In this document: positions 1,741 through 64,000 of the stretch, in pieces | Position numbering within the stretch: the first letter of the stretch is position 1 | How the letters are laid out: each line of letters opens with the position of its first letter | Assembly (NCBI RefSeq): GCF_026151205.1 | Contig: NC_087077.1 | Location: forward strand, 4,836,001 to 4,900,000 | Reading direction: 5' to 3' | Source of the DNA: Bolinopsis microptera | Lineage: Eukaryota > Ctenophora > Tentaculata > Lobata > Bolinopsidae | Length of the DNA stretch: 64,000 nucleotides | Notes under the pieces: model-generated | What the model saw: only the letters and a program-made list of their open reading frames with translations | The model's database searches: none | Told to the model about the DNA's origin: nothing | Position numbers and translations under genes: made by a program

Positions 1741-4470
1741 TCAATAATCTAGCATGGTCCAAAACTGAAAACTGTTAAAGTTGTCATTATGCCACTCATT
1801 ATCGAACCTGCTTTGGGCATCTAGAAGAGATCGGTTTAGCCTTGATTTGATTGAGTTACAGGATGTGTTCACAAAGTCAGGTTTATTCTGTGGATTGGAG
1901 TCCTTGAATTGATTCCAAAGCCAAGAAGATTTATAAATAAAGTTATGGCTTTGATTCACGATGTCAATCCTTCGCAGCTCGGTGAGGCACAGTGGTGCAT
2001 CTCGCCGATCTACCGAAGATTGGTTGCGAGAAGCATTATTTGATGCGCGCGCGACCCAGTAGTGCATCGCGCTACAAGTTATGGCTTGGCTTTGGTGGTA
2101 TTAGACGGTCATCCCTCAGTTCAGACATGTTAAGTAAAGAATAGAGAGATATGGGTACCCTATATTTCACTATTTTAAAAAGTTCAGTTATAGTACGAAG
2201 TTTGTAAAGATTATGAACAGTAAGGAGTTTATGACTGTTAAATAATGGTTTGGTTGATTCCTTGGAATAGAATTCAGCTCCTAGTTTTTGACAACATAAG
2301 CAATAAGGGTCTAACAAGTTTATTATGAACTACCGATTTAGAGCGGACACACTTAATTGCACATGGTTTAATACGTGGATTAACAGAGTTATTAACATTA
2401 AACTCATATTTACCCAGTATTTTACATTGAATAGGTCTAGAACGAGCACATGTTTTGAATTTGTTTTGGTATGAGTTTGCATCTCCAAAAATTATTCTAA
2501 TACATCTCTTCTGTGTTAAGAATACAGGGTTGATAACTTGGTTAGAGACACCACCCCATACTGAGATGGCGAACGTAAGGTGTGATTCAAATAGTGTGTG
2601 GTATATCTGCTTGTGCAGTTTTATAGGTAGACAGTTTTTTATGCAGTAAATACGTCCACAAGCACTTCTTAGTTTCTTATTTAGTGATTCGATGTGAGGT
2701 TTCCAGTTCAGTTTATCATCAATCAGCACACCTAGAAACTTAGTTGTTTTAACACGTATTATTATGGAGCCGTCTATGGAGAGATTTAAATCATCGGGTG
2801 TACTGCATGTAGACGATTCATTTACACGTTTGTTTGGGGAGAAATACATAAAACAGCTCTTCTTAGCGTTAATATGTAGTAGATTACATTTCATGTATCT
2901 AGAAATAGACGAAAGAATATCGTTAGCTACATTATAAACGTCTTTTTTCGAGTCTGCAGAAACGAATAGGTTAGTGTCGTCAGCAAATAAGATAAACTTG
3001 CCTTTATTAGATACGTTGCATAGGTCATTTATATACAGGAGGAATAGTAAGGGACCAAGAACAGAGCCTTGGGGAACTCCCCACACAACAGGAAGTTTAT
3101 CGGAGTTTTCATTTAAGACGTGAACATATTGGCTCCGGTTTGACAGGTAACTTTTTATCAAATTCAGTGCGTTGCCCCTGATTCCGTAATTATTTAATTT
3201 GAATAAAAGCTTATCGTGAGATATCGTGTCGAAAGCCTTACTTAAATCAATGAAAATGCCAAGAACGTGTTTCCTGTCTTTTAAGTGTGATTCGATATGG
3301 CTAACAGATAAGTTCAGTGCGTGGCTTGTTGAGTGACCCTTTCTAAATCCAAATTGGTTCTCATAAATGATTCTTTTAGCAATTAGGAAGCTGTACATAC
3401 GTTTATAAATAAGTTTCTCTAAAAGTTTTCCAAATACTGGTAAGGTTGATATTGGCCTATAGTTTTCAAATAGTTCCTGATTATCTTTTTTATAGATGGG
3501 ACTTATCTTTCCTAATTTAAGTTCATTTGGGAATATCCCCTGTTGCATGCAATGGTTAAAGTGCTTGGCTAAAAAGGGAGATATTATTCTAGCAGACTTT
3601 CTAGCAGACTTTTTTATAACGTGAATTGGAATGTCACTAGATTTACCATTTGTGAACTCATTAATAATATCTATAATTTCATACTGTGTACAATCACTTA
3701 GATATATACTTGACTCACAGGTTTTAGGTAAGAAGTTTGAGAATGAGGGAATTGCATCCAGGGTTATATAATCTTCAGAATAATTTTCATTTAGTTTGGA
3801 TGCAATCGACTGAAAATATTTATTGAATTCATTAGCAATCATCCTACGATTTATTATTTTTTGATCGTTAAGGATAAAACATGGCTTTATTTCACGCCTG
3901 GATTTTCCACGAATAGTGTTTATGATTTCCCACGTTTTCTTACTATCACCAGAGCATGAGCAGTCAGTTAATTTACCTGCATAATGATTCTTCTTGACAC
4001 GGTCAATAAGTACCTTGAGATGCTTCCTGTAATCCTTATATTCAAGGTATCTTTTTGCTATTATATTCATACAAGTGAGGCAATTACACTCCTCGCGTTT
4101 AATATTATTATTATTAGTTAGCAATAAACATTTTTTCTTCTGAGACTTTTTCCACAAATCATAGAGCGAGTCTTTCGTTCAAATTGAGGTAACAATACCA
4201 CTAGTAATCCATGGGTTGTTCAAAGCGTTACGTTTAGATAATTTCGGTTTGTCAAGTTTGAATGCCTCGTCTAGGTGCTTCTGAAAAGTAGTGCAGAAAC
4301 TACTGAAGTTTTCAGGAGGATTGGTATGTAGTTCATTAACAATTGATGTGAGAAAGGCGTCTACATTTGAGGTGCTATAGTCGTAATATTGTGCGTGTTT
4401 AAGTTTAGGTTCATCAGTTACAAAATTAAGACAACTATTGATTTGAAAGATGGCATGGCGTATTTGTCAG
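1741..4470 (-). mobile_element. 5'-truncated non-LTR retrotransposon (jockey/CR1-like LINE)
   Basis: On the minus strand the sequence encodes a reverse transcriptase followed by a LINE-type C-terminal region. The upstream endonuclease is missing. The recognisable frame begins near 4470, at a residue run (SDKYA) that resembles the end of an apurinic endonuclease domain, and sequence beyond it is unrelated. This is the normal outcome of incomplete target-primed reverse transcription. The copy is inactive because it also carries a nonsense codon and two frameshifts. The clade is inferred from RT motifs only. Confidence 0.85.
1744..4454 (-). pseudogene. LINE reverse transcriptase ORF2 remnant
   Basis: RT motifs appear in order: YRPIST, AFDTISHDKLL, GVPQGSVLGPLLFLLYINDL and the catalytic LFADDTNLF. 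A linker-like segment upstream reads in the same frame but is cut by an in-frame TGA at 4179-4181 (minus strand). The frame is lost once around 2290-2317, where the reading continues in another frame with NSHKLLTVHNLYKLRT, and again near 2070, where a third frame continues to 1741 (IYKSSWLWNQF). The longest intact segment is 2274-4157. The endonuclease is absent. The protein would have copied its own RNA at the target site; as it stands it is dead. Confidence 0.85.
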
Positions 4471-5248
4471 TATGAACTGGACTGCTTTTCATCCAGCTAT
4501 CACTTTTAATTCTCACATTATCGTGTTATTCTCCTTATATAACTTCTTTCTGAACTGCTGTCATATCTTTTCATTAAAAGGAGCTTGCTGAAGCAGATGA
4601 TTTACTTTATTCTCTTCCCCATATCTTTGCATATATGTCATATGTGTCGACCTTCGAAAACCTTATTTACCAAGGCACACGGACCCAGATTTACCGCCTT
4701 TTCATTCCCTACAACTCTGCAGTAAATTGGTGTTTTACTGTACTACTAACTGGTTAATGATCAGGAATTTCAATCAAGTTAGCTAAATTGTACGAATTCC
4801 CTAGTTCGGTTTCATCCAGATTAACATGCTTGTTGACAGTTTACTTTGTGTCAGTGGTTTAATGGAATCTTGCACGATTTGTTATCGAAATGCTCCAGGC
4901 TTGAGTCTCGTGCGCTAGATACTCAGCTGTCATCTCATCTGAATGTTTGGGAAATCGTGATAGAGAGTTCATGGAGATAGGCCCTTCGGTAACCTTACGA
5001 TGGATATCTCTTGTGTGTGTTGCATGCAATCATGTACTCGTTCACCATCAATCAAAAATATATGCAGTGCAGCTGTCGTCTTGATTGTTTATGTGATAAC
5101 AACTTAACCTTCAGAAATGCTACTTTTGTGATGTTTGATATTGTGGTATTTTATACCTTTTAATTTAATTCACAATTTTTTAGTGTGCTTTCATTTTTTT
5201 GTGGTCAACCTTTTAAATTCATGGAGATATCTGTGGTCTAGTTGCAGA
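4471..5248. other. Non-coding stretch between two LINE copies
   Basis: I see no gene, repeat array or structured element in this AT-rich stretch. It sits between the truncated 5' end of one LINE and the tail of the next. Confidence 0.4.
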
Positions 5249-6600
5249 TAGCACTATTTGATTTGATTTGATTTGAAACTTTTACAAATAGTACATTATA
5301 CAATACAGCAAAGAGAATTAAAAATATACGACATTATTATCATGAGGCATTTGTAGGGTAAAAGTTGTAGTCCATATTGTATAAATACTAAAAGCATGGT
5401 TAAGTGGTACAAGTTCTGGGGGTATACGTATTACAAGTAATAGTTCTACTCCCAGACTCACTAACACCACCTCCATCTAAACACACAAAATGTATCTAAA
5501 ACACGCAAATTTAGAATTATCAAAATAAATACATAATGTATCCATGACCCGACTCATAATGCGCCAAAAATTGCGCGCGTATCATCACACAGCGATTAAA
5601 AGCAAGATTACAGTCGGATATAAAGTTCGCGTAATCCAGTTAAGTATATTAACTGAGGACTGCACCAGGGTCAAATCATGGTGACAGAACGTAAATGTTA
5701 TTTAATATTATTTAATAGATTTCTTTTTATATTATAGTTGTTATATTCAGTATCGTGACCGATCTATCAGTGGCGGGGGCCCACATATAAATATCATTTG
5801 TACTCATTAACTTAGTCAGGGTCTGTCAATTTGTCCCAAAAGTGTTTTGCCAGGTTTGACTTAAAAGTTCTGGCATCACTTATCTCTTTAAGGTCAGTTG
5901 GTAGGTCATTCCAGACACTGTGTGTTCTGAAGAAGAAGCTTCTCTTAAAGGAGTGAGCTTTTGCTTCCACAGTACACTTCAGGGAAAGGTGGTCGTGTCT
6001 GTTCTGTCGCCTCTGGTTGATATCAGGCATTTGAGATGTATCAACTTCATTATATCTCGAGGGTTGCCTTATGTTTGAACGCAACCTACCCTGTTCACTG
6101 GTTGTTATCGGGGTTAAATAAGGTGGGAGCTTCAGAACAGATTGACCATTGTATATCTGATGGAATAATAGTAAGTCTGTGTATTCAAACTTCAGCTCCA
6201 TTGGCAACATGTCTAGCTCTCTTAATCGAGCCAAGTATTCTAAGTCATTATAGTGATGATCCTGTTCGCCAAGGATCCACTTAACTGCTCTGCGCTGAAT
6301 GTTTTCAACTTTGTTATTCAAGACAACACTTGTTGGTCTCCAGACAACACTGCAATTTTCGAAAAGGCTCCTAACCAGCGCTAGATAGAATGCCCGTTTT
6401 TGTTTACGGTCGTTAATAAACCGTAGAGTTCTTTTCATTAGACCTAGACGAGAACTAGCTTTCGTACAAAGGTTGACTATGTTCTCCTCCCACTTAAGGT
6501 CAGTTCTAACAAAGACCCCAAGGTCTTTTTCACTCTGGACGAAGTCTAGTGCCGTTCCATCTAGGGTATAGACAAAGAGCTGGAAGGGGAAAAAACTCAA
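5249..6600 (-). mobile_element. 5'-truncated LINE with pentanucleotide tail
   Basis: The minus strand holds an RT C-terminal region, about 530 bp of 3' UTR, and a simple-repeat tail that reads (CAAAT)n on the minus strand (5249-5278 on plus). Tail plus 5' truncation is the classic LINE insertion signature. The 5' break lies near 6590, just upstream of the residues LFVYTLDGTALDF. It is a different family from the LINE at 1741-4470, because the C-terminal protein sequences do not match. Confidence 0.8.
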
Positions 6601-6645
6601 AATTCCCATTTGTAATCTGTAAGTTACTTTTTCGAGATCAGCCAA
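5812..6645 (-). pseudogene. C-terminal fragment of a LINE RT/ORF2 protein
   Basis: The 277-codon frame is uninterrupted but starts downstream of the RT catalytic FADD box. It shows the typical post-catalytic segment (VQSEKDLGVFVRTDLKWEENI), the NIQRRAVKWI region, and the C-terminal FFFRTHSVWNDLPTDL motif seen in CR1-like elements. The first 25 or so residues probably come from unrelated flanking DNA. With no catalytic site the product cannot act as a polymerase. The open frame suggests a fairly young insertion. Confidence 0.8.
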
Positions 6646-7333
6646 GTTCCATCAATCTGTGTTTTAAACTGAGGACTTAATTGGGTTTATTCAGCCCCCA
6701 GTCCTTGACCATGTACATGGTCATCTAAATTGCCTGATTGGATTGGAATTTTTCTGGAAGATTTGACTCCGGGCATCTCAATGTTTGCTTAGGACCAAAC
6801 AGCTAGATTGATCCTATTCAAATGATTTTGGCATTTTGAGACGTGTAGAGTTTAGAGTAGTTTATCCAAGCAGCTACAGCCATTACATGAAGGCTGAACT
6901 GCTAATAAGGCCCAATTTAATTTTATGATGATGCAAGTTCAAAGCATCAGAAGTATTTCATTGCTTAGGACCTTCGGTTTTGGTCGTTAGGGGGCTGCAT
7001 TTGGTTCCATTCGATTTTTTCCCTTGCATTTATGTGTTAAAGTATTAAGAGTAATTTCCTTAAATTATTTTAATGCAGTTACTCAGATAAGTATATACCA
7101 GGACACTTCAACAAAGACACATATTCTGCCTACAGTAAGGGGCCATAATTGTCTCAATTATGTAACTATAGATTTATTATTATTATCGGTCTGACTAGCT
7201 TTCTGGCCACAAATTTGGTTCAGGTTCTCTAAAGCTTTTAACCTCTGACCCAGTATTTTTATTACCACACTCCTTAATTCTCATAGTATTAACATTATGT
7301 CTTGGATATTAATTTAACCCTGCTTATATCCAG
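6646..7333. promoter_or_regulatory. Upstream region of the midnolin-like gene
   Basis: No coding sequence is seen. A good 3' splice site (pyrimidine-rich run ending in CAG at 7331-7333) stands 10 bases before the predicted start codon. The 5' UTR may therefore be split by an intron whose first exon and promoter lie further upstream. I found no clear TATA box. Confidence 0.4.
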
Positions 7334-7343
7334 TGACAGCATC

Positions 7344-8645
7344 ATGGGTGAAACAATCAAGGTTAAAATCTGCCCCCTGTCTGGTGATGTGTTTGAACTC
7401 AATGTATCGCTTGACTCAAGAGTAGAGTCATTTAAACAGAAAGTGGCTGATAGGCTTCGGACAGACACCGACAACATCAAAATACTGCTTAAAGAGAAGT
7501 AAGTACTTTTAAAATTGCTGTTTATTAAATTATTCATTGCCATCTGCCTTCAGTTATGTCTACTTCAAGTTCATATTTGTTTTCTGTATATTATATATAA
7601 CAAGATCAATTTCTAAACGAGGGTCCACTAAAAAAGGATCCAAACTTTCAGGGAATTAAGGTTTGGTAGTTTGAAGGAAAACAACCTGATACCCGGCTGC
7701 AGTATATCTGTTTTACCTGTTATGCGCGCTGGGTTGGTGGGATACGTAACTACTAAGTCCAGTGTTCTCCTCAAAAGTATTCCTGATGAAGTCCTGGAAA
7801 ATGCAGAGGTAATATTTCAACTTCAATCTTCGTTGAACAAAAAAATGTATCTGTCAGAAAATGTATTGCTGATTTCGTGTTGAAGCCTAGCTCAGCTGAT
7901 TAGGGTTTTTCATGTCACCATTATCAACTATTTATTACAGATTAAAGCTCAGATAAGGGATGGAGATCAAGCATCAATAACTCTCCACATTGAAGATATG
8001 GTCATCGTGTTCAAACTGCAGCTCATCGCCAGCGAACCAGAAGCAGATGGTGCTGGTCCCAGCACAAGTGCTGCCTCCTCCTCTGAAAGCTCTGATTTTC
8101 ACAAAAAGTTCGTCCAGTACATCAGAAAAGGCACGAACAATCAATCATCGCTTGTATCCAAGGGTAAATCAGACATTCCCCTCAGTAGCGAGCTAAAGAA
8201 GTTTCTTAAAGATATGGTCATTAAGAAGCTGAAGTCTGAAATGGGGATGGTTAAATCGGACTCTGATCAATCATCCTTGCCAAGTTATGCTAAAAGGCGG
8301 AGCACTAGTTTGGATAGCTATCGAAATGCTAAGAGGGCAAAAATCCTCACCCAATGTCAGTTTGAGCAAGACCCCATCGCTGTAAAGTTATCGAATGACT
8401 GCGAAAGGGAAAATAAAATTATGAAAAGCAAAATCGCCGGACTGAAGGAGAGGATGCGCAAAACCAGACTTCAGAAGAAACGAAGGCGGTCAGCTCTGCC
8501 ATGTGGTTGGACCAACTCCTCCAAATTATTACACGCAGAGAATACGACCTGTCAAACGACGTGCGACTCAGTACAGTTAGCCGTTCATTCCGTGCCCGGA
8601 CCTTCTAGTAGCTATGCTGGCATGAAGAAAGGTTTTCTCTTGTGA
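7344..8645 (+). CDS. MIDN: Midnolin-like protein (ubiquitin-like domain), 3 exons
   Basis: The coding exons are 7344-7498, 7652-7808 and 7941-8645. Both introns (153 and 132 bp) are GT-AG, and the splices keep frame to give 338 residues. Residues about 4-76 form a ubiquitin-like domain. Its end (GCSISVLPVMRAGLV) and a later segment (about 112-134, ITLHIEDMVIVFKLQLIA) match midnolin, where the latter is part of the substrate-binding Catch region. An acidic/serine-rich linker follows, then a helix-forming lysine-rich part and a basic segment (about 258-294, CERENKIMKSKI...KKRRRSALPCGW) like the C-terminal proteasome-binding helix and nuclear signal of the family. Mammalian midnolin carries nuclear proteins to the proteasome without ubiquitination. 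This protein is shorter than the human one (about 468), and I cannot place the second half of Catch. The ATG at 7344 has a good context (A at -3, G at +4); an upstream TTG in the same frame was rejected. Confidence 0.85.
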
Positions 8646-12265: not shown

Positions 12266-12662
12266 ACCGCGCCGGTACAGGTCCTTTGGTAAGAAGAGGC
12301 AGTCTTCCGTGCACACAGCACTGTACTTATGATATGTAGTTCCCTGGTCAGAGGTACTAATGATAGTACCGTATCACTGTGTTGAACAGTGCTGGTAGGG
12401 TGCTCAATGAGGAAACACACGGTATGTACCGTGTAACCTGCGTGTAACAGAGCCTCTGTAGTTTAACACGGCAACTTTCCGACAGCATCTAATTCTGGAC
12501 TGTCGTCTCAACGTGCCCAATAAAACTAGCATGCTGGAAGACGGAGAAGTGTGCTTAGTTGTAGACGAAGAAGTGCGCCGTGTCGGGTGCACTGAGCAGC
12601 GCTGACTAGACTAGGCACCAGCTGAGCAGTACAGCCCAGTTTGGTCTCTCTCTCTAACTCGG

Positions 12663-13164
<502 letters not shown>

Positions 13165-17841: not shown

Positions 17842-18530
17842 TGTCTTAGCATGAAAATGTATTTTGCACTAATATGCGTGATGGTCAGATATTGGAGCTT
17901 AGTTTTGACTCCTTTTAGCATCATGTGTCTGTCGTTAAGTGATATTAAGTGGCGGCTATATTTTCATATTATTGACCTCTTCACAAACGTTTCAGAATGC
18001 CGCGCCGGCCAATTAACATTTTAATAAAATCTGGAAATGTCCGGTGGTCACGTTAAGAAACACAACAACCTGCCTCATCAACACGATGTTATATCACTCC
18101 AGTTGTTGGAACTGAACCCCCTCAACATGTTAAATACCGACCCATTAGAGGCCTCCCGACAGGTAGCAGCAGTACTGTGCCTCGCTCTCTGAACGTGTTG
18201 AAATCATTAAAACTCATTTGGTGGCCTGTACACTGACTGGTCGACAAAGCCTCCTAATAGTGAGGTGGTGTTGACTGGAGAGGATGTAGTATTTTATATG
18301 TAAGAAGGGGGTGGACCCACCATTAAAACATGTGTTGTTGAGCTGGGTTCCGGGTGTGTTCCGGCTGCTGGTGTGTTCCGGCTGCTGGTGTGTTGTCAAC
18401 AGATCAGTGCCACTATGATCTGGGAGTTGTGTTGCTAGTTCTGCTAAGTGTGTGTGTGTGTGTGATCTGGTGTGCTGGTTGGTGTGGTGTTTAAAGTGAG
18501 GTTACACCCAGGTGGCATGTCCTACCAGAT

Positions 18531-19639
18531 CACAGTGGGCTGGGATGCTAGCATAGGCCAAAAATTGACTTTTTCCCCCTCTTTTCTAATTGATTTATCT
18601 TTTAAGATAAAAATAATCCTGATGCAATGCAAAAAACCAAAATGAAAAAGGATGAATGGTGTGAAAATGGCACCGCGCCTAAAATCTGTATTTTTTGGCA
18701 GTGAAAATTTTGTATTTTACTGCCAAAATTTACTCTTCTTTTATCTTTTCACCATAAAATGTCTTTGTATTAGTTTCCTGAGTTATTTATGAGTTAGTGA
18801 TGATCCAAGCATCCTAGTTACTAGAAAAAAAACCCTAAGGGTCTAGCTAATTTGCTGATTTTTTGATGGAGCGCCGATTTTAAACTAAATTTCAGCATTT
18901 TTTTCTCTTAAAAAGGGCACAAATAGTTGCTAACTTCATAATACTTCAAATGGAAACCTACTTCATCTTAAAGCTGAGACAATTTTGGTTTAGAAGCTTT
19001 TGGAATCTGTCTGGGCCACTTTGGGTTATATCTGTTTAAAAAATTAAGAAACTCAAAAATGGGGTCAAATTTGCTGCATTTTTAGATAATTTATGAGCTC
19101 AATTTTGCTATTAAATTGACATATCTTAGTTATTCTCCATGTTTGTGGCGTTTTTTGCATCCTAGACTAGAAGCATATGGATGAAAAATCAAAATAGTAC
19201 AATTATTATAGTTAAAATTGATAAAAATCCAAAAAAATCGCGATTTTAAACGAAATTTTTGAAAATAACAGGAAAAATTTTGGTGTTTCAGAAAATTTTG
19301 GTCATATAAATGGGCACAACTTTTGTTCTGATCAATATTTTTTCATAATTCAAAAAGATTCGAGTTCCTAAGATAGCTGTCCTTCGTTTACAGTTCATAG
19401 AAGAGCTTTAAAATTGATTAAACCTCTAAAAAACATCTTTTCCTGGGGTCAGCCTCTTATTTTTGGACTACAGGAGTGCTCAAAATCGGCCCAAAAATTT
19501 TTTTCTAAGACATTTTGGGCCCTGTAAATGATTGGAATCGTATTTTTGTACCCAAATTACCTTAGAAACAAAGTTAGGGGCATGTGTGATGGTCTAAAAT
19601 ACCCTATGCTAGCATGACCCCCACTCACAGCCCACTGTG
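18531..19639. mobile_element. 1109-bp non-autonomous DNA transposon with CACAGTG ends (Transib/RAG-like)
   Basis: The element starts CACAGTGGGCTG (18531-18542) and ends with its exact inverse (19628-19639). A second inverted block, ATGCTAGCATAGG, lies inside each end (18545-18557 and near 19603-19615), at different distances from the tip. The 5-bp sequence CAGAT flanks both ends (18526-18530 and 19640-19644), a clean target site duplication. Transib and RAG-type transposases make 5-bp duplications and use ends beginning CAC, and CACAGTG is identical to the heptamer of the V(D)J recombination signal. The interior is AT-rich and has no open frame of 60 codons or more, so the element would depend on a transposase from elsewhere. 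The superfamily assignment is inferred. Confidence 0.75.
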
Positions 19640-19644
19640 CAGAT

Positions 19645-26048: not shown

Positions 26049-31111
<5,063 letters not shown>

Positions 31112-31317: not shown

Positions 31318-34283
31318 TTATGGACAAATATTAGAAATATTATCAAAAGCTAGTTGGAAATAAAACGTCTTTAGGGCATTTTTAAAACATTCTACAGATG
31401 ATAATGATCTCACTGAGTAGGGTAGTTCATTCCAAATTTTTGGTCCACAAAACATAAATGCAGCATCTGTTCGTCTGAAATGAGGAGCAGGAGGAACTTT
31501 CAACAAATAAAAGTCATCATCTAGTCTGGAACTTTGTCTTCGTACTTCCCTTAGATTGACGTGTCCTTGTAAGTACTGAGGGGCTATGTTATTAAGACAC
31601 TTGAAGACCAGAAGTGATATTTTGAACTTAATTCTGAACCGAACAGGCAGAAAGTGGAGCTTTTTGAGGTAAGGCATGATAGGTTCACGTTTCTTTTTTC
31701 CGTAAAGACCAAAGATAAATCTAGCAGCATTGTTCTGTATCTTTTGTAGCTTATGAAGATTCTTTTCTGTTAGTCCATAATAGACTGAGTTGCAGTAGTC
31801 TATGAAACAGAGGATATTGGAGTGAACTAGCTGAACTTTTAGGTCATGGGAAAGCTTCGAACCGATTCTTGCTAAGTCCCTTTGATTCAAATAACATACT
31901 TTGGAGACAGCATTTATTTGAGAGTCCAGATTCATTTGGTGATCGAAAAGGAATCCCAGGTTCTTGGCCTTGCTAACAGGGCAGATTGAGAGGTCTCCTA
32001 AATCCATTGTCTGGATTGGGCTGACATATGGTCCTATATCAATGAACTCTGTTTTTTCATCATTCAGTTTTAGGAAGTTAACTGTCATCCATTGCTTTAT
32101 CTCCAGAAAGCAATTTTTCACAGCTGTTAAATCAGGATTAGAACTGTGAACATCAAAAGTAAAGTACACCTGTGTGTCATCTGCATACAAATGTATCGAG
32201 AAACCATATTTTGTGACAATTTCTTCAAGATCTCTGGTATACAATATGAACAGTAGTGGTCCTAAAATGGATCCTTGAGGTACACCAATATCCAGATAGC
32301 CTTCAGAAGATGTGGCTTTTTTTACTTTAACCTTGAATGTGCGATTATTAAGGTAACATTGTAACCAGCTGAGTGCTAGTTCTGTAATACCATACGCATT
32401 CTTGAGTTTCGTAAGAAGGAGGTTATGGTTTATGGTGTCGAAAGCAGCTGATAGATCTAAGAGTAGAAGCACAACATTCGATTTGCTGTCAATCATCATT
32501 AGAATATCATTATGTATTTTGGTAACTGCAGTTTCACAACTATGGAATTTTCTATAGCCTGATTGATATATGGGGAAAACAGGTTGTTGACATCAGCATA
32601 TTCATTTAATTGGCAATGAACTACTTTTTCTAGTATTTTGGACAGATAAGTTAGATTGCTAATCGGTCGATAGTTTTTCAGCTCATCAACATCTAAGGTA
32701 GGTTTCTTGAGTCCAGGCCTAATAGATGCTTCTTTTAGGGCAGATGGAAACTTTCCGACTCTTAGTGATTCATTCACGATGTAATGGATGATTGGGAGAA
32801 GCTCGGGTAAGCAGTTCTTGAAGAGCCACATTGGTATGACATCGAGTACGCTTGATTTATTGGGAAGACTCTTAATTAAGGTTTCAAGGTCTGATAATGA
32901 GACTTCCTTAAACTGATTAAGTCTACACTTTGCATTATCTATCGAAGTAGAGTCCTTGGTACCTTGACCGTTTAGGGAAGTGTTTTGAATTTCCTTCTCA
33001 ATATTAGAGTAAATGGTCTTTACTTTTTGATCGAAGAAAGTCTTGAGTTTGGCAGCCACTTCGATATCTTCACCATTTGGCAATTTGTTGGAGCCATATT
33101 CCTTATCTAAAAGTTTATTTATGACTTTATAGGTCCCTTTCGAGTCTCCTTTGCAAGAACTGAGCTGTTTATCATAGTAGCCATCCCTAGCTCGATTGAT
33201 AGTGATTTCTGCGTCAACACATTTTTCAAAATGAGTAGTTTTAAACTCATCATTCTCTGGATACTTTTTGGCTTTTCGTTTTGCCCTTCTCCTCTCTCTG
33301 ACAGCAATTTGACATTTATTATCCCAAAAATCAGACTTTTCAGCAGTAAATCGTTTCGTAATAAGTGGGGCATGTTTGTCTAGCACCTGTTCAAGGACAT
33401 TTTGATAAAGGTTCACAGTCTCGTCTAAGGATTGATATTCAGAAAGGTTAAGCTCTGAACAAAACAGATCTTCCCTGAACTTATCGATGTCAATTTTGCT
33501 TAGCTCTCTGACATCTTTTTCTTCATATGTACGAGCTTTATGAAGATCGAATGTGACTGGGACCTGAAAACTTACTAGATAGTGATCAGAGCTGGTTCCA
33601 GTGCTTGTCTCTACCATCATATCTGTTACAGACAATGAGTCACTTACACAGCCTAGAGTAAATAACAAGTCCAGTGTCCCGCCGGAGATGTGAGTAGGAG
33701 AGTCGACATGCTGAAGGAAGCCTTTGCTCTCACAAAGAGCAATAAAGTTCTGGGCAACATTATTGTTCAGGTCTTCAACATGGAAATTAAAGTCACCACA
33801 AATAATTGGAGATCCAGTTTTAAGCAGAAGATTGTCCAGGTATCCATCAAAGTCATCCATAAACTTAGATATTTTTGTTTCATCATATTTCGCTTTGGCC
33901 TGAGTGCTGCGATAAACTACACATAGCCTGATAATCTCACCAGCAGTTTTAATGACACATTCAAGTACTTCAAAAGATGAATATTTAGTAACATCATTGC
34001 GTACAGGCGATATCATTTTGGGGTTGAAGAGAAAACCAACACCACCTCCCCTACCTCTTCGAGGGGCACTGATAATATCGAACCCAAAATCACGGATTTC
34101 GGCAAACTTTGCCCGATCATTAGTTTTTAGCCAAGTTTCCGTGATACAACAGATAGAAATCGAGTTATCTTTAAGCATTTCTAGTACGCCACAAGTTTTG
34201 TTGCATAGAGACCTTGCGTTGAAACAACCAATAGAAAGCTGTGATTTCTGTCGATTAGCACCTAATTTCACATTACGTTTTTT
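31318..34283 (-). pseudogene. LINE ORF2: endonuclease-reverse transcriptase, one frameshift
   Basis: The first part (to about 32566) holds an apurinic-type endonuclease: FNARSL near the start, ETWLK, CGDFNFH and SSDHYLVSF. The RT start YRPISNLTYLSKILEKVV follows. The frame breaks at an ATATAT run (about 32566-32571), where one extra AT separates it from the rest. Restarting in the other frame gives AFDTINH, GVPQGSILGPLLFILY, the catalytic YADDTQVYF and a C-terminal PKIWNELPYSV motif. The protein would nick the target and copy its RNA. There is no ATG ahead of the endonuclease; the frame is entered from ORF1 (see the slippery site). Confidence 0.88.
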
Positions 34284-35584
34284 GAAATAAAATCAGTGTT
34301 AGCAGCAATACGTTTAGTTTCTCTTACCAACACAGGACAATCGTAAGCTGCCGCATTATGTGTTCTTGAATTCTCGGCATCATTAGTGTGTGTTGAAGCC
34401 AAACATCGAGCACAGGCATGTTTGTCCTTCTTCTGCTTAAATTGGCATGCTGAAGACCGGTGACTTCCCATACAGTACATGCAGGTAGGATTTTTATTTG
34501 TTTTGACTTCATAACAGTCAACAGAAGTGTGTCCAATCATTTGACAATGATAACACTGTTTGATGTAGAAGCGATCAGTTACTTTGTATCTGCGACTACC
34601 TAAATAGAGAGATCCTTGTTGTTGGTTAAAGAGGACTCTATAGACAGATGGTGATAGTTTGATTCCAATAGTGAGCTCTATGCGTTCCTGCTTATCGTTG
34701 GTGAAACGTTTTATCTTATTGAGATAGACAATACTGATAGTGTGCCCTGCTTCATACAAATCTTTGATGGACGAGTTTTTCTCCACAATTTGGGCGACTA
34801 AGTGGTTCTTTTCAAGATCCCTAAGTTTATCGGCATCATTCCCTACAGCTGTAGTGTCTATATCGTCAAGAACTTCAGAAGAAACACCATAAATAGTAAC
34901 TTTTGGCAGCATTTTGTTGCCATTCTTAGACTGATATCCATACGAATCTAAGGTATTTCCATCATTGAGAAGTGAAGTAGCCTTATCACGAATTTCAGCA
35001 TTAGGGAAGCCAATTGAAACTTTCTTGTTGTTTTCATTACATCTGAGAAATACTACTTGACTGCTCTTTAATTTATCAGTAGCAAATTTTTTCACATTCG
35101 TCATTGTTGCAGCATTTACTGATTGTTCTTCTTTCGGGGACAGAATTAGAATCTCGGGTGATGAAGGTTGTGTACGTGTTGGAGCAATTGGAACATGTGG
35201 TGGTTGAGCAGATGGTGTGGAACTGTTTGAGTCGGTAAACAAGCTGGAATAGAGAACGTCCTTTGTATGAGAAACAGTACCAGATTTTGTTACAACAGTG
35301 TTTACTTTATTGTCAATAACATCATTGATATTTTTCGTGAGGTCTTCTTTTAAAGATGAAAACTGTTCAGCAAATTGTTTCATAAAATCAACCTGATCTG
35401 AGGATCGCTCTTGAGCTCTCTCAGGTTTCTGGGACAGTTGTTCCTTCAGCAAGGTTTTAAGTTCAGACATCTCTTCCCTGAACTCCAAATTTATGGCATC
35501 TATTTTATTATCTAACAATCCTACCCGATCTACGGTATAGTAGTAGCAGTAATAGTCACTCTCGTATACTCGCCATATTATCAT
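34268..35584 (-). CDS. LINE ORF1: RNA-binding zinc-knuckle protein
   Basis: This is an uninterrupted 438-codon frame, of which the first 18 or so codons are probably flanking DNA. Residues about 20-95 are charged and look like a coiled coil, and a Pro/Ser-rich linker follows to about 150. The middle (about 170-330) is of mixed character and may be an RRM-like fold. Three zinc-knuckle-type motifs follow: C-x2-C-x4-H-x4-C at 344-357, C-x2-C-x3-H-x4-C at 368-380, and C-x2-C-x4-H at 391-399 with a later Cys at about 416. Such ORF1 proteins coat LINE RNA. The stop TGA is at 34268-34270 and overlaps the ORF2 frame. Confidence 0.85.
   Translation of the reverse strand: MIIWRVYESDYYCYYYTVDRVGLLDNKIDAINLEFREEMSELKTLLKEQLSQKPERAQERSSDQVDFMKQFAEQFSSLKEDLTKNINDVIDNKVNTVVTKSGTVSHTKDVLYSSLFTDSNSSTPSAQPPHVPIAPTRTQPSSPEILILSPKEEQSVNAATMTNVKKFATDKLKSSQVVFLRCNENNKKVSIGFPNAEIRDKATSLLNDGNTLDSYGYQSKNGNKMLPKVTIYGVSSEVLDDIDTTAVGNDADKLRDLEKNHLVAQIVEKNSSIKDLYEAGHTISIVYLNKIKRFTNDKQERIELTIGIKLSPSVYRVLFNQQQGSLYLGSRRYKVTDRFYIKQCYHCQMIGHTSVDCYEVKTNKNPTCMYCMGSHRSSACQFKQKKDKHACARCLASTHTNDAENSRTHNAAAYDCPVLVRETKRIAANTDFISKNVM
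34277..34283 (-). promoter_or_regulatory. Candidate -1 ribosomal frameshift site, A AAA AAC
   Basis: On the minus strand ORF1 ends TCA AAA AAC GTA ATG TGA. The heptamer A AAA AAC sits in the zero frame, six bases before the stop. A -1 slip there enters exactly the ORF2 frame (AAA AAA CGT AAT GTG AAA). The first ATG in ORF2 is inside the endonuclease domain, after the conserved NARSL residues, so ordinary AUG initiation would lose part of the active site. No downstream stem-loop or pseudoknot was obvious by eye. Confidence 0.65.
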
Positions 35585-43655: not shown

Positions 43656-44040
<385 letters not shown>

Positions 44041-48456: not shown

Positions 48457-52562
<4,106 letters not shown>

Positions 52563-58411: not shown

Positions 58412-59410
58412 GTGCACTCCAGAACCATCTGCCAGATCAGATCTGCGACAACGGGACCCAGATATAATATTAATAAGCATATCTACAGTTTGGCCGACAA
58501 AGATGTCCTGCAGGATGATCTCAACTCTGTTGTTAATTGGGCTAAGTGCAACAACATGGCCCTTCATGAGGATAAGTTCGAGCTTCTTGTTCACAAGCAT
58601 TGTCCAAAGAACTCCTTGTTTGATCATCCATTCGCCATCCAAGCTCAAACATATGAAGTGTCTAACGGAAACATGCTGTACCACACTCAAACTGTGAAAG
58701 ATCTAGGAGTGACAGTTTCCGCTGATTTGTCCTGGACCCCATACGTCAACAGGATAGCTGAACGCGCAGGAAAAGTTGCTTCTTGGGTGCTAAGTGCGTT
58801 CAAAACGAGAGACAAAGCCACCATGATGACTCTGTACAAGTCTCTCGTTAGAAGTCATCTGGAGTATTGCTGTCCTCTGTGGAATTGCTCTAAGAACAAG
58901 GACATCCAACAGCTAGAAGGGATTCAGCGTACGTTTACATCGAAAATAGATGGCACCCAGCACCTCAACTACTGACAGAGATTAAAGGCCCTAGATCTGA
59001 TGTCATTGCAAAGAAGAAAAGAACGGTATTTAATCATCAACATGTGGAAAGTTCTGCATTGCAAGTGCCCTAATGATATTGGTATCCAGTTCTCGGTGAC
59101 TCTCAGACATGGTCAAAAAGCAGTTGTGCCCAGTATAGCTAAGTCCAGTAGTCAACGTAATCAAGCACTACATGACAACTCATTTGCAGTTACTGGACCT
59201 CGATTATGGAATGTAATCCCAACACATATGCACACCATCGAGGATCCTATGCAATTCAAAGCAGCTTTAACGAACTTTGTGAAGTCATTTCCGGACGAGC
59301 TTGACGGATGTTACTCGTCTAAATTTCTTCGAAGTAGCGCGCGCCGCTTTCTTCTCGAAATGCCCGATGGCAAGAGCTACGAAGTAGCGCGCGCCGGGTC
59401 AGATCATTAA
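58412..59410 (+). pseudogene. LINE 3' fragment: RT C-terminal region with one nonsense codon
   Basis: The frame starts just after where the RT catalytic box should be (SLADKDVLQDDLNSVVNWAKCNNMALHEDKFELL). It continues through VKDLGVTVSADLSWTPYV, SLVRSHLEYCCPLWN and the C-terminal GPRLWNVIPTHM. A TGA at 58973-58975 interrupts an otherwise continuous frame, which resumes with QRLKALDLMSLQRRKERY. The copy is 5'-truncated at about 58430 and inactive. It is a CR1-like family different from the three upstream LINEs. Its last codons run into a 16-bp direct repeat, GAAGTAGCGCGCGCCG, at 59331 and 59381. Confidence 0.82.
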
Positions 59411-59763: not shown

Positions 59764-60284
59764 TTACAGCAGAAGTAGGCTAGAAACTGTGACATCAACA
59801 TGTTTCTAGTTAAAATGGAGAGCGTTCTGGGCAGGATCCTCTGAAGCTCTGAAGCTACACGGCGTTAACTGTATCCGTGCATTACCATTCCCGGATGTCA
59901 GTAGCGCGAGTCTAATGCTCGGACCCACTCCAAAGTGAGGAACAAATAGTTTACTGCCATATAAGTTTATTTTCATGTCGATAAATTGGACAATAGTTTA
60001 AATTTTATATAAATTTTATATAAATATCCATACCACATGTATGATGTAGGCTGTGTCCTGTGATGTGATCGACATCTTGTTACAGCTTGTTAGTGTACGG
60101 CTAGCACGATCCTGTCCTCAAATAGTCAATCACGTATCGATGGATCAGATCTCAATGGGTCACATCAGCATTAGAACAATGGGAGCAACGTCACGAGATT
60201 ACCCGCGAGCTTGTGAAATACGAATGTGAACCGAAATTACAATATGATCAGAAATTCGGACAGATGTCGCCAAAAACGACTCAT

Positions 60285-60347
60285 GTCCGACAGCGACATC
60301 TGTCCGAAATCCCTAATTCGGCTGTCGGACAGATGTCGCTGTCGGAC
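60285..60347. repeat. Perfect 23-bp-stem hairpin in repeat unit, copy 1
   Basis: 60285-60307 is the exact inverse of 60325-60347, with a 17-base loop. The stem is built on the 14-mer CGGACAGATGTCGC, which also stands alone at 60257 and 60342, giving three direct copies and one inverted copy within 100 bp. Confidence 0.92.
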
Positions 60348-61056
60348 AGATGTCGCCCAATCTTGTTGGACTTGTCGACTACGTCTACACTGCACCCAGT
60401 GTATAGACATAGTGCATGGTGCATTTTGATTGACGATGTCAACCCGAAATCTTTGCTTTGCAATCGCGATCAAGCAGAGCAACGTACTTTTACTAATTCG
60501 CTCGCCCAAAAATTTCAATTTTAACGTGACTTTGGTTTTTATGGTTTTGCGAAGCCGTACAAAACGGTTTTACATAAACCCTTCACATAGCCATGTGTAT
60601 TCACGTACTAATATAAAACAAATATTAATAAAACAAATATTTATTTTTACGGCACAATCCACAATCAAACAATATCAATAACAAATAAATCAGGGGAGGT
60701 TTGAAGAAGTTTCAAGTGCCGAAAGCCACTGCTTATCTTTAGGATTTGAGAGTGACCTGTGCTTGATACCCCCTCAGCACTCAGGCTCAACCATCCACTA
60801 CGTCAATATACTTATTATACAAATATAGAAAAATATAATAATCTAAAATTGGAGGACTTCGCCGCTTCGACGCGCAAACTAGCATTCTTGCTTCGTCGAT
60901 CGTTGCTCTGCTTCGCAAAACAACGATCTCGATCTCGATGGGTTGACCATTGACACTGTCAATAACATCTAAAATTGCTTATTTGGTATTGGTCTAGTTT
61001 GGTGACACATGAGATGAGAGCCCAGTTTAGTTTTAGTTTGGGTTTATATTAATTGA

Positions 61057-61370: not shown

Positions 61371-61891
61371 TTACAGCAGAAGTAGGCTAGAAACTGTGAC
61401 ATCAACATGTTTCTAGTTAAAATGGAGAGCGTTCTGGGCAGGATCCTCTGAAGCTCTGAAGCTACACGGCGTTAACTGTATCCGTGCATTACCATTCCCG
61501 GATGTCAGTAGCGCGAGTCTAATGCTCGGACCCACTCCAAAGTGAGGAACAAATAGTTTACTGCCATATAAGTTTATTTTCATGTCGATAAATTGGACAA
61601 TAGTTTAAATTTTATATAAATTTTATATAAATATCCATACCACATGTATGATGTAGGCTGTGTCCTGTGATGTGATCGACATCTTGTTACAGCTTGTTAG
61701 TGTACGGCTAGCACGATCCTGTCCTCAAATAGTCAATCACGTATCGATGGATCAGATCTCAATGGGTCACATCAGCATTAGAACAATGGGAGCAACGTCA
61801 CGAGATTACCCGCGAGCTTGTGAAATACGAATGTGAACCGAAATTACAATATGATCAGAAATTCGGACAGATGTCGCCAAAAACGACTCAT

Positions 61892-61954
61892 GTCCGACAG
61901 CGACATCTGTCCGAAATCCCTAATTCGGCTGTCGGACAGATGTCGCTGTCGGAC
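61892..61954. repeat. Perfect 23-bp-stem hairpin in repeat unit, copy 2
   Basis: Same stem and loop as copy 1 (arms 61892-61914 and 61932-61954). In copy 3 the corresponding place (about 63366-63465) has lost the perfect pairing. Confidence 0.9.
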
Positions 61955-64000
61955 AGATGTCGCCCAATCTTGTTGGACTTGTCGACTACGTCTACACTGC
62001 ACCCAGTGTATAGACATAGTGCATGGTGCATTTTGATTGACGATGTCAACCCGAAATCTTTGCTTTGCAATCGCGATCAAGCAGAGCAACGTACTTTTAC
62101 TAATTCGCTCGCCCAAAAATTTCAATTTTAACGTGACTTTGGTTTTTATGGTTTTGCGAAGCCGTACAAAACGGTTTTACATAAACCCTTCACATAGCCA
62201 TGTGTATTCACGTACTAATATAAAACAAATATTAATAAAACAAATATTTATTTTTACGGCACAATCCACAATCAAACAATATCAATAACAAATAAATCAG
62301 GGGAGGTTTGAAGAAGTTTCAAGTGCCGAAAGCCACTGCTTATCTTTAGGATTTGAGAGTGACCTGTGCTTGATACCCCCTCAGCACTCAGGCTCAACCA
62401 TCCACTACGTCAATATACTTATTATACAAATATAGAAAAATATAATAATCTAAAATTGGAGGACTTCGCCGCTTCGACGCGCAAACTAGCATCTTGCTTC
62501 GTCGATCGTTGCTCTGCTTCGCAAAACAACGATCTCGATTCGAAGGTTGACATTACATGTCATAATTAACATTATTTTTATTGGCTAGTTTGGTGAACAT
62601 GGATGACCAGTTTAGTTTAGTGGGTTTATTTATTGACGTTGGAATGGAAATCCTTGCTTAAATTTAGGGTGAATAAAACATTCTAATGTCGGGGGTGGAC
62701 TTTCGATGGCCTAGAGGATTCAGGTCTTCAAGTAGAACGTCCCGGGGAAAGCTTATGTGGTCCCTCGTAGCGCTGGCCATTGGATGGTTGCAAAAAGGAG
62801 TTGTTGAACAGGTTGCTGTAGACGGTAGAACATGTAATGCAAAACGAAGTCTTTGCTTTATATATCTGTCCATGAAGGTTTCCTTAAAGAAGGTTAGTTA
62901 GGTGTAGTGATTTCTTCTTTCTTACAGCAAGAAGTTAGGCAAAATGTACATAACATGTTTCTAGTTAATTAGGGTTCTGCGATATCTGAAGCTCTGAAGC
63001 TAACGGTTTAATAGTATGTGCATTACATTCCCGGATGTCAGTAGGCGGAGTTAAATTTCTCGGACCCACTCAAAAGTGAGGAACAATAGTTTTACTTCCA
63101 ATAAGTTTTCAGTTAATTGGACAATATTTAATTTTAATGAAGTTTTCAATCCGAAAATCCTACGCTTCTTTAAATGTTGATGAGACGTGTCCTGTGTATG
63201 ACTCAGACATTCAGCTTGTTAGTGTACGGCAGCACGATCTGTCCCAATACGTCAATACTTTTATCATGATAGACAAATTACATACATTAAACAATTGGAG
63301 ACGTCACAGTCCGCCGTCGAGCTTGTAAACTACGATGTAACCAATTGCAATTCGTCGATTCGTGCCGGTCGCCCAAAAACGATCTCGATGTCCGAGGTCA
63401 TGCGACACTGTCAATAATTGGCATCGACAATGTGCTGTCGACGGATGTGCCATCTGTTTGGACTGCACTACGTCTACACTGGACCCAGTTATAGTTAGTC
63501 TTGGTATTTTATATTGACGATGTCACCAATCTTTCTTTGCAATGCATCAGCGAGCACGTACGCATTCTACCAATTTACCCGCCAGAAGTTAATTTAAGGA
63601 CTGTTTTATTCCAGCGAAAAACGTCCCAAATACCGTCACTGCCTGTGATCCGTTACTAATGTCAACGATTATTATACAACTAAATATATTATTATTTGGC
63701 CGTACCGTATAGTATGGACAAAAAAACAGGGGAAGTTTAGAGAATTCTAAGTGCGAAAGCAATGTTATACTTGATTGAGTGTAACCTGTAGGCTTGTACG
63801 TTAACCAGATCAGGCTTTATATCACTAGTATATATTTATAATATGATAATAAGCATATAATTAATTTTAAAGGAAATTCTCAGTATCGATCTTCGCAGAA
63901 TTACATTCTTTTTGTCCACGTTCTGTTGCAAAACGAAAGAATCTCGTATTCTCATGGATGACATTTTACACTGTATAAACTAATTGCTTATTTGATGGTT

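Follow-up and report, generated by a model that had tools for sequence, protein, structure and literature searches.

The window analyzed here, a stretch of 64,000 nucleotides from the ctenophore Bolinopsis microptera, contains at positions 18526–19644 a short element with inverted ends, and raises the question of what moves this element and whether the unequal layout of its two ends reflects a pairing rule. Ctenophores may be the sister group of all other animals. A reading made from the sequence alone had described CACAGTG tips, a 12-bp terminal inverted repeat (TIR) and CAGAT flanks at this place, and had assigned the element to the Transib/RAG group. Transib transposases are relatives of the enzyme that rearranges antibody genes.

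Inspection of the sequence showed the tips, the inverted repeat and the flanks exactly as described. The element itself occupies positions 18531–19639 and is flanked by the target site duplication CAGAT on the left (18526–18530) and on the right (19640–19644), with borders that are also supported by comparison with the copy family. Its tips read CACAGTGGGCTG at 18531–18542 and the reverse complement at 19628–19639, each starting with the heptamer CACAGTG (18531–18537 on the plus strand and 19633–19639 on the minus strand). The second inverted block, ATGCTAGCATAGG, likewise lies at unequal distances, starting 2 bp past the 12-mer on the left (18545–18557, plus strand) and 12 bp past it on the right (19603–19615, minus strand). 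Measured from the heptamer, the pattern search places the block behind a 7-bp spacer, GGCTGGG (18538–18544, plus strand), at the left end and behind a 17-bp spacer, GGCTGTGAGTGGGGGTC (19616–19632, minus strand), at the right end; the main family and its coding element read GGCTACC in the short spacer. The block is identical at both ends and is a putative transposase-binding site. With a GC content of 0.33 and a longest run without a stop of 70 codons, the element has no coding capacity. The interior had been described as non-coding and 1109 bp long, of which the first part is correct, whereas 1109 bp is the length of the whole element including both ends.

The element belongs to a large set of copies. 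A whole-element search of the 264.65-Mb assembly, in which the window lies on contig C6, returned at least 54 matches (40 of 56 candidate places scored). A search for heptamer and block with a free gap of 1–30 bp found 101 ends in the 264.65 Mb and none for a control pattern, so the end pattern of the window element occurs far beyond chance. From a set of 91 loci, 28 that overlapped others or were transposase hits were left out, and ends were looked for in the remaining 63; 48 of these have both ends, 6 a single end, and 7 are transposase regions without these ends, with L076 (ends 203 bp apart) and L011 (rearranged) set aside from the paired copies. The further copies share the boundaries of the window element, and an exact 5-bp target duplication is present at the borders of 46 of the 48. 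No copy shows an exact border repeat of 3, 4, 6 or 7 bp, five show one of 2 bp, and the sole 8-bp repeat belongs to L078, which lies in a CTC-rich site and is counted at 5 bp as well. When flanks were cross-paired between different copies as a control, 4 of 2256 pairs matched. At L063, the tip is damaged and an exact duplication is absent. The flank of L061 is shared with L060 at 98%, so that L061 is a segmental duplicate and no independent insertion; damage to its second end makes the spacer read 8 rather than 7. Base preference in the duplicated target sites is only weak; the first position, for instance, is C in 34 of 92 when both strands are counted.

The copies fall into several groups. 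Main family A comprises 32 copies of 1.0–1.2 kb with a median distance to their consensus of 0.72% (mean 1.3%; one outlier at 11.7%). The window element represents a subfamily, W, for which six copies were found, five with 4–8 differences in about 1107 positions and one, L006, with 44. The right 677 bp of W are common to family A at about 93% identity, including the non-coding right half of the window element (18963–19602, compared with the family A copy L044), while the left half specific to W (18558–18962) is only about 67% similar to A over about 200 bp. This combination of a diverged left half and an A-like right half indicates a mosaic origin for W or an old sister relationship to A. Family B, with the block ATGATAGTTTAGG, is represented in the set by five complete copies of 1.44 kb, and family C by one divergent, coding copy (L087:2108–6455; C6:5380107–5384454) with the target duplication TGGTG. 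By eye, the family C element is inserted beside Penelope-like frames. To judge from its sequences, the family of the window element is young and recently mobile.

Several individual copies carry features of their own. Three main-family copies (L052, L059 and L078) contain three different nested retroelements within about 12 bp of one another, near element position 591–601; by eye, two of them have LINE-like reverse transcriptase frames, and one is Penelope-like with a GIY-YIG-like part. L076:1235–1437 measures 203 bp and has both ends, spacers of 7 and 17 bp and TAATG on each side; it appears close to a minimal mobile unit. The W copy L003 has the duplication CTATG followed by two extra bases, CA, before CACAGTG (L003:1494–1500). 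These bases are palindromic to the flank end, as P nucleotides would be, yet slippage of CA fits too.

A full-length coding relative, which the sequence-only reading had proposed to look for, was found at L012 (C3:4779000–4788900). This 3927-bp element (3664–7590 of the locus) has the same ends with spacers of 7 and 17 bp, its own 5-bp target duplication, TATCT, and a RAG1/Transib-type transposase gene on the minus strand, consisting of two exons with GT-AG intron borders. The RAG1 profile PF12940 scored above its cut-off at two places in the genome, L012 and the family B element L011, which holds an open frame of 552 residues. The link between the short copies and L012 is close: identity to L012 is 98.4% for the left 498 bp of L044 and 98.2–98.6% for three more among the nine sequences compared. 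Among 37 genomic matches to the second L012 exon, three are nearly full-length and free of stops (L020, L028 and L019, the last being L012 itself), and the remaining ones are partial or contain stops. For the transposase stretches L085, L086 and L088–L091, no paired ends were found within the flanking DNA examined. A genome search with the left half of W gave six full matches, all of them short copies. Since this search revealed no W-type coding element, we can only infer what mobilizes the exact W subfamily.

Taken together, the 5-bp target duplication, the CAC-initiated heptamer-like tips and a RAG1-like DDE transposase on an element with the same ends place the family in the Transib superfamily, in agreement with the initial assignment. 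The window element is very probably a non-autonomous, MITE-like cut-and-paste transposon of this superfamily whose mobilization in trans would depend on a RAG1-like DDE transposase from another locus in the genome; L012 provides an intact-looking example of an element that encodes it. Short CAC-initiated ends are found in several superfamilies, so that Chapaev, CACTA or another CMC element might have similar tips. The 5-bp duplication in 46 of 48 copies and the RAG1/Transib protein encoded by the same-ended L012 leave such an origin a negligible probability, and a Chapaev- or CACTA-type assignment was ruled out on these grounds.

Comparison of the transposases with proteins of known structure further defines their relationships. 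The two L012 exons matched PDB entry 6pqn (E 9.7e-12 and 1.9e-7), which is HzTransib (entry title: DNA-mediated transposase), and RAG1L 6b40 (2.1e-7), the amphioxus protein; the second exon matched no vertebrate RAG1 chain at E 1 or better. The family B protein (L009/L011) gave 1.1e-18 with 6pqn, 1.8e-16 with 6b40 and 5.9e-10 with the best vertebrate RAG1. Over 335 codons, the proteins of L012 and L011 share 60% identity; pS is 0.84 (saturated) against a pN of 0.27, which points to constraint at the protein level; the family C transposase is about 30% identical to the L012 protein. The catalytic residues D, D and E are kept at aligned places in both L012 and L011. Both transposases have Q at the D of the RAG1 motif IDALH, which is position 792 when counted back from E962 in mouse RAG1. 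A reading of the two as dead enzymes was dropped: HzTransib likewise lacks this D, having S there, and D708, in mouse RAG1 numbering, aligns with the D of ALDRKA in the family B alignment. The basic stretch KKCRLHILKLSKSQQHRRLDS, which resembles a nonamer-binding domain, was also rejected as such a domain, PDB matches covering the protein only from residue 196 on, bar two at chance level (E 2.4 and 2.8).

The features of the transposase also bear on whether the family is a RAGL/ProtoRAG-type transposon, encoding both RAG1L and RAG2L, instead of a RAG2-free Transib. A C-terminal Cx2Cx3GHx4C motif fits CKHCDMRGHSRRWC in L012 and CEECKIKGHSYRYC in L011, and the last C of this motif is absent from the family C tail. 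Its presence in L012 is a point in favor of RAGL, the motif having been described for invertebrate RAG1L in a section of PMC7204232. The family B protein, furthermore, aligns continuously with RAG1L (query 93–535), whereas phmmer aligned it with HzTransib in two stretches only; the unaligned middle of the query is longer, by about 49 residues, than that of HzTransib and about as long as that of RAG1L (lengths only). However, L012 is bounded by TIRs and a target duplication and carries no second gene: among frames of at least 80 codons, only two, of 119 codons (antisense) and 84 codons, accompany its transposase exons. Among solved structures, HzTransib rather than RAG1L is the closest relative. 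A genome-wide search with the RAG2 profile PF03089 gave 0 matches, but its control likewise matched nowhere, so this absence carries little weight. We consider a RAGL origin highly improbable and retain the RAG2-free Transib assignment.

By analogy with established Transib/RAG chemistry, the transposase would pair one short (7-bp) and one long (17-bp) end and nick 5′ of each CACAGTG, leaving hairpins on the flanking DNA. The cut ends would then be inserted at staggered positions 5 bp apart, as in HzTransib/RAG chemistry. In such a complex, the second block may act as a distal binding site whose two spacings differ by about one helical turn.

The genome offers many natural instances of this spacing. 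Of the 101 ends, 100 were listed, and with any gap of 1–30 bp allowed, 50 of those listed have a spacer of 7 bp, 50 have one of 17 bp and none has another value. All 43 exact pairs among the listed ends combine one 7 with one 17, with 14 listed ends lacking an exact partner; when mismatches are allowed, 47 of 48 paired copies are 7/17 and one (L061) is 8/17. L078 contains an additional 7-bp end inside the element. The unequal spacing of the two ends is real and general. The earlier suggestion of an asymmetric spacer architecture reminiscent of recombination signals thus stands as to the asymmetry, but the spacers are 7/17 and not 12/23, and the block is no V(D)J nonamer.

The 43 mixed pairs do not amount to 43 independent trials, because the copies descend from few ancestors. 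A single ancestor could account for the asymmetry in all A, W and B copies, and the 7/17 layout might then be a functionless product of common descent, with the heptamer and a few adjoining bases being all that the transposase needs. A proposal in part of PMC7204232 points the same way, holding that for protostome RAGL the first 15–17 bp matter most and asymmetry has relatively little influence. Comparison across families is a stronger argument on spacing than the pair count, and it speaks against descent alone. From A to B, the block changed identically at both ends, and the spacings of 7 and 17 remained. Family C, although represented by one copy, has the same bipartite asymmetric design with an unrelated block, CTGGAAA(A/G)AATCAAGTT, at 18 bp at one end and 9 bp at the other. 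The spacer differences in A, B and C are 10, 10 and 9 bp, about one helical turn, and the long-spacer end, which in the window element is the right one, lies on the transposase-start side in the coding relatives of all three. The confinement of all 100 listed ends to two spacer lengths, 50 each, and the preference of ProtoRAG for its own asymmetric pair, reported in part of PMC8289069, likewise weigh against the descent-only explanation, which we regard as unlikely. We tentatively propose, as a possibility rather than a probability, that a RAG2-free transposase in a ctenophore enforces a true short/long pairing rule with spacings about one helical turn apart. If so, the 12/23 rule would follow a logic inherent to the RAG1/Transib enzyme and older than RAG2 and adaptive immunity.

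To place these families among known systems, we compared them with published descriptions. Tao et al. 2022 (PMC9435367) describe asymmetric TIRs and a CTT1 tail in every Subgroup I Transib. By description, the Bolinopsis families resemble that subgroup: one gene encodes the transposase, the TIRs begin with CAC and are asymmetric (43 of 43 exact pairs), and the tail is of the CTT1 type (L012 and L011). They differ in the block sequences and the spacers from the heptamer (7/17 and 9/18), which are those found in this genome. The same work includes six Transib-like proteins from ctenophores, naming Mnemiopsis and Pleurobrachia Transibs in a figure legend, and its main text assigns them to no stated subgroup (PMC9435367). 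HzTransib (PDB 6pqn and five further entries) has a homologous transposase and is the best sequence match, but its TIRs are symmetric according to a section of PMC8289069, unlike those of the window family. RAGL/ProtoRAG elements of amphioxus and Aureococcus (AanRAGL) share asymmetric bipartite TIRs and the 5-bp duplication, and the TIR elements of AanRAGL lie 4 and 13 bp apart (PMC9435367), a difference of 9 bp as in family C. They carry RAG2L, however, whereas L012 has no second gene among the frames considered. The spacers of amphioxus ProtoRAG are given as 27 and 31 in a passage of PMC8355894, a difference that is not about one helical turn, and 12/23-like spacing is mentioned there for some insect Transibs. 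With V(D)J recombination signals, the window element has in common the heptamer CACAGTG and a second element whose two distances differ by about one helical turn, yet these signals place an A-rich nonamer at 12/23 where the window element has ATGCTAGCATAGG at 7/17, and no RAG2 was seen. The heptamer had been likened to that of vertebrate signals and is indeed present, but it implies no tie to vertebrate RAG in particular, because it is widely shared within the Transib/RAG group. A partial survey of the literature on Transib and asymmetric TIRs, with repeat databases outside its scope, yielded no account that we recognized as describing these families.

Asymmetric Transib ends are thus already published (PMC9435367), and the Bolinopsis families add unusually good natural statistics. 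A single genome holds about fifty natural substrates, mostly near-identical, and alongside them a coding partner that looks intact and two more families whose blocks differ. This would make it possible to test directly, without RAG2, how a 12/23-like rule arose, and work on ctenophores gains a young, possibly still mobile element.

Alignment of filled with empty sites succeeded for three relatives. When the two flanks of L006, which is located in a zinc-finger gene repeat, are joined, they align gap-free with a paralogous stretch (94.9% identity over 233 bp) that contains a single copy of the 5-bp target. The empty sites of L012 and L004 are more diverged (82% and 86%) and include small gaps. 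For the window copy itself no empty site was found, both flanks matching only themselves across the genome. By eye and by flank similarity, the flanks of L006, L011 and L012 lie in or adjoin C2H2 zinc-finger gene repeats, the coding element L011 being within a C2H2 zinc-finger gene region.

The rearranged element L011:4420–8262 (C2:19700419–19704261) shows a precise junction between its long-spacer tip and the site TGTGG inside its own transposase gene. The segment between the joined sites is inverted, and four of the target bases recur at the other junction, beside the duplication ATATG. This arrangement fits an intramolecular strand transfer by a single end, which may have produced it. At the left junction of L011, two extra bases, CA, follow ATATG and could be P nucleotides from hairpin opening or simple CA slippage.

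Elsewhere in the window, frames at 31318–35584, 2274–4157, 5812–6645 and 58412–59410 resemble, by eye, the reverse transcriptase, endonuclease and zinc-knuckle first frame of non-LTR retrotransposons. Long near-perfect dinucleotide arrays (GT, TG, TC and AG) are located at 43659–44038, 27086–27347, 12645–13164 and 51033–51398. The same three short tandem repeats occur at 59999–60641 and 61606–62248, 1607 bp apart, which suggests that a segment of about 1.6 kb is duplicated or repeated here.
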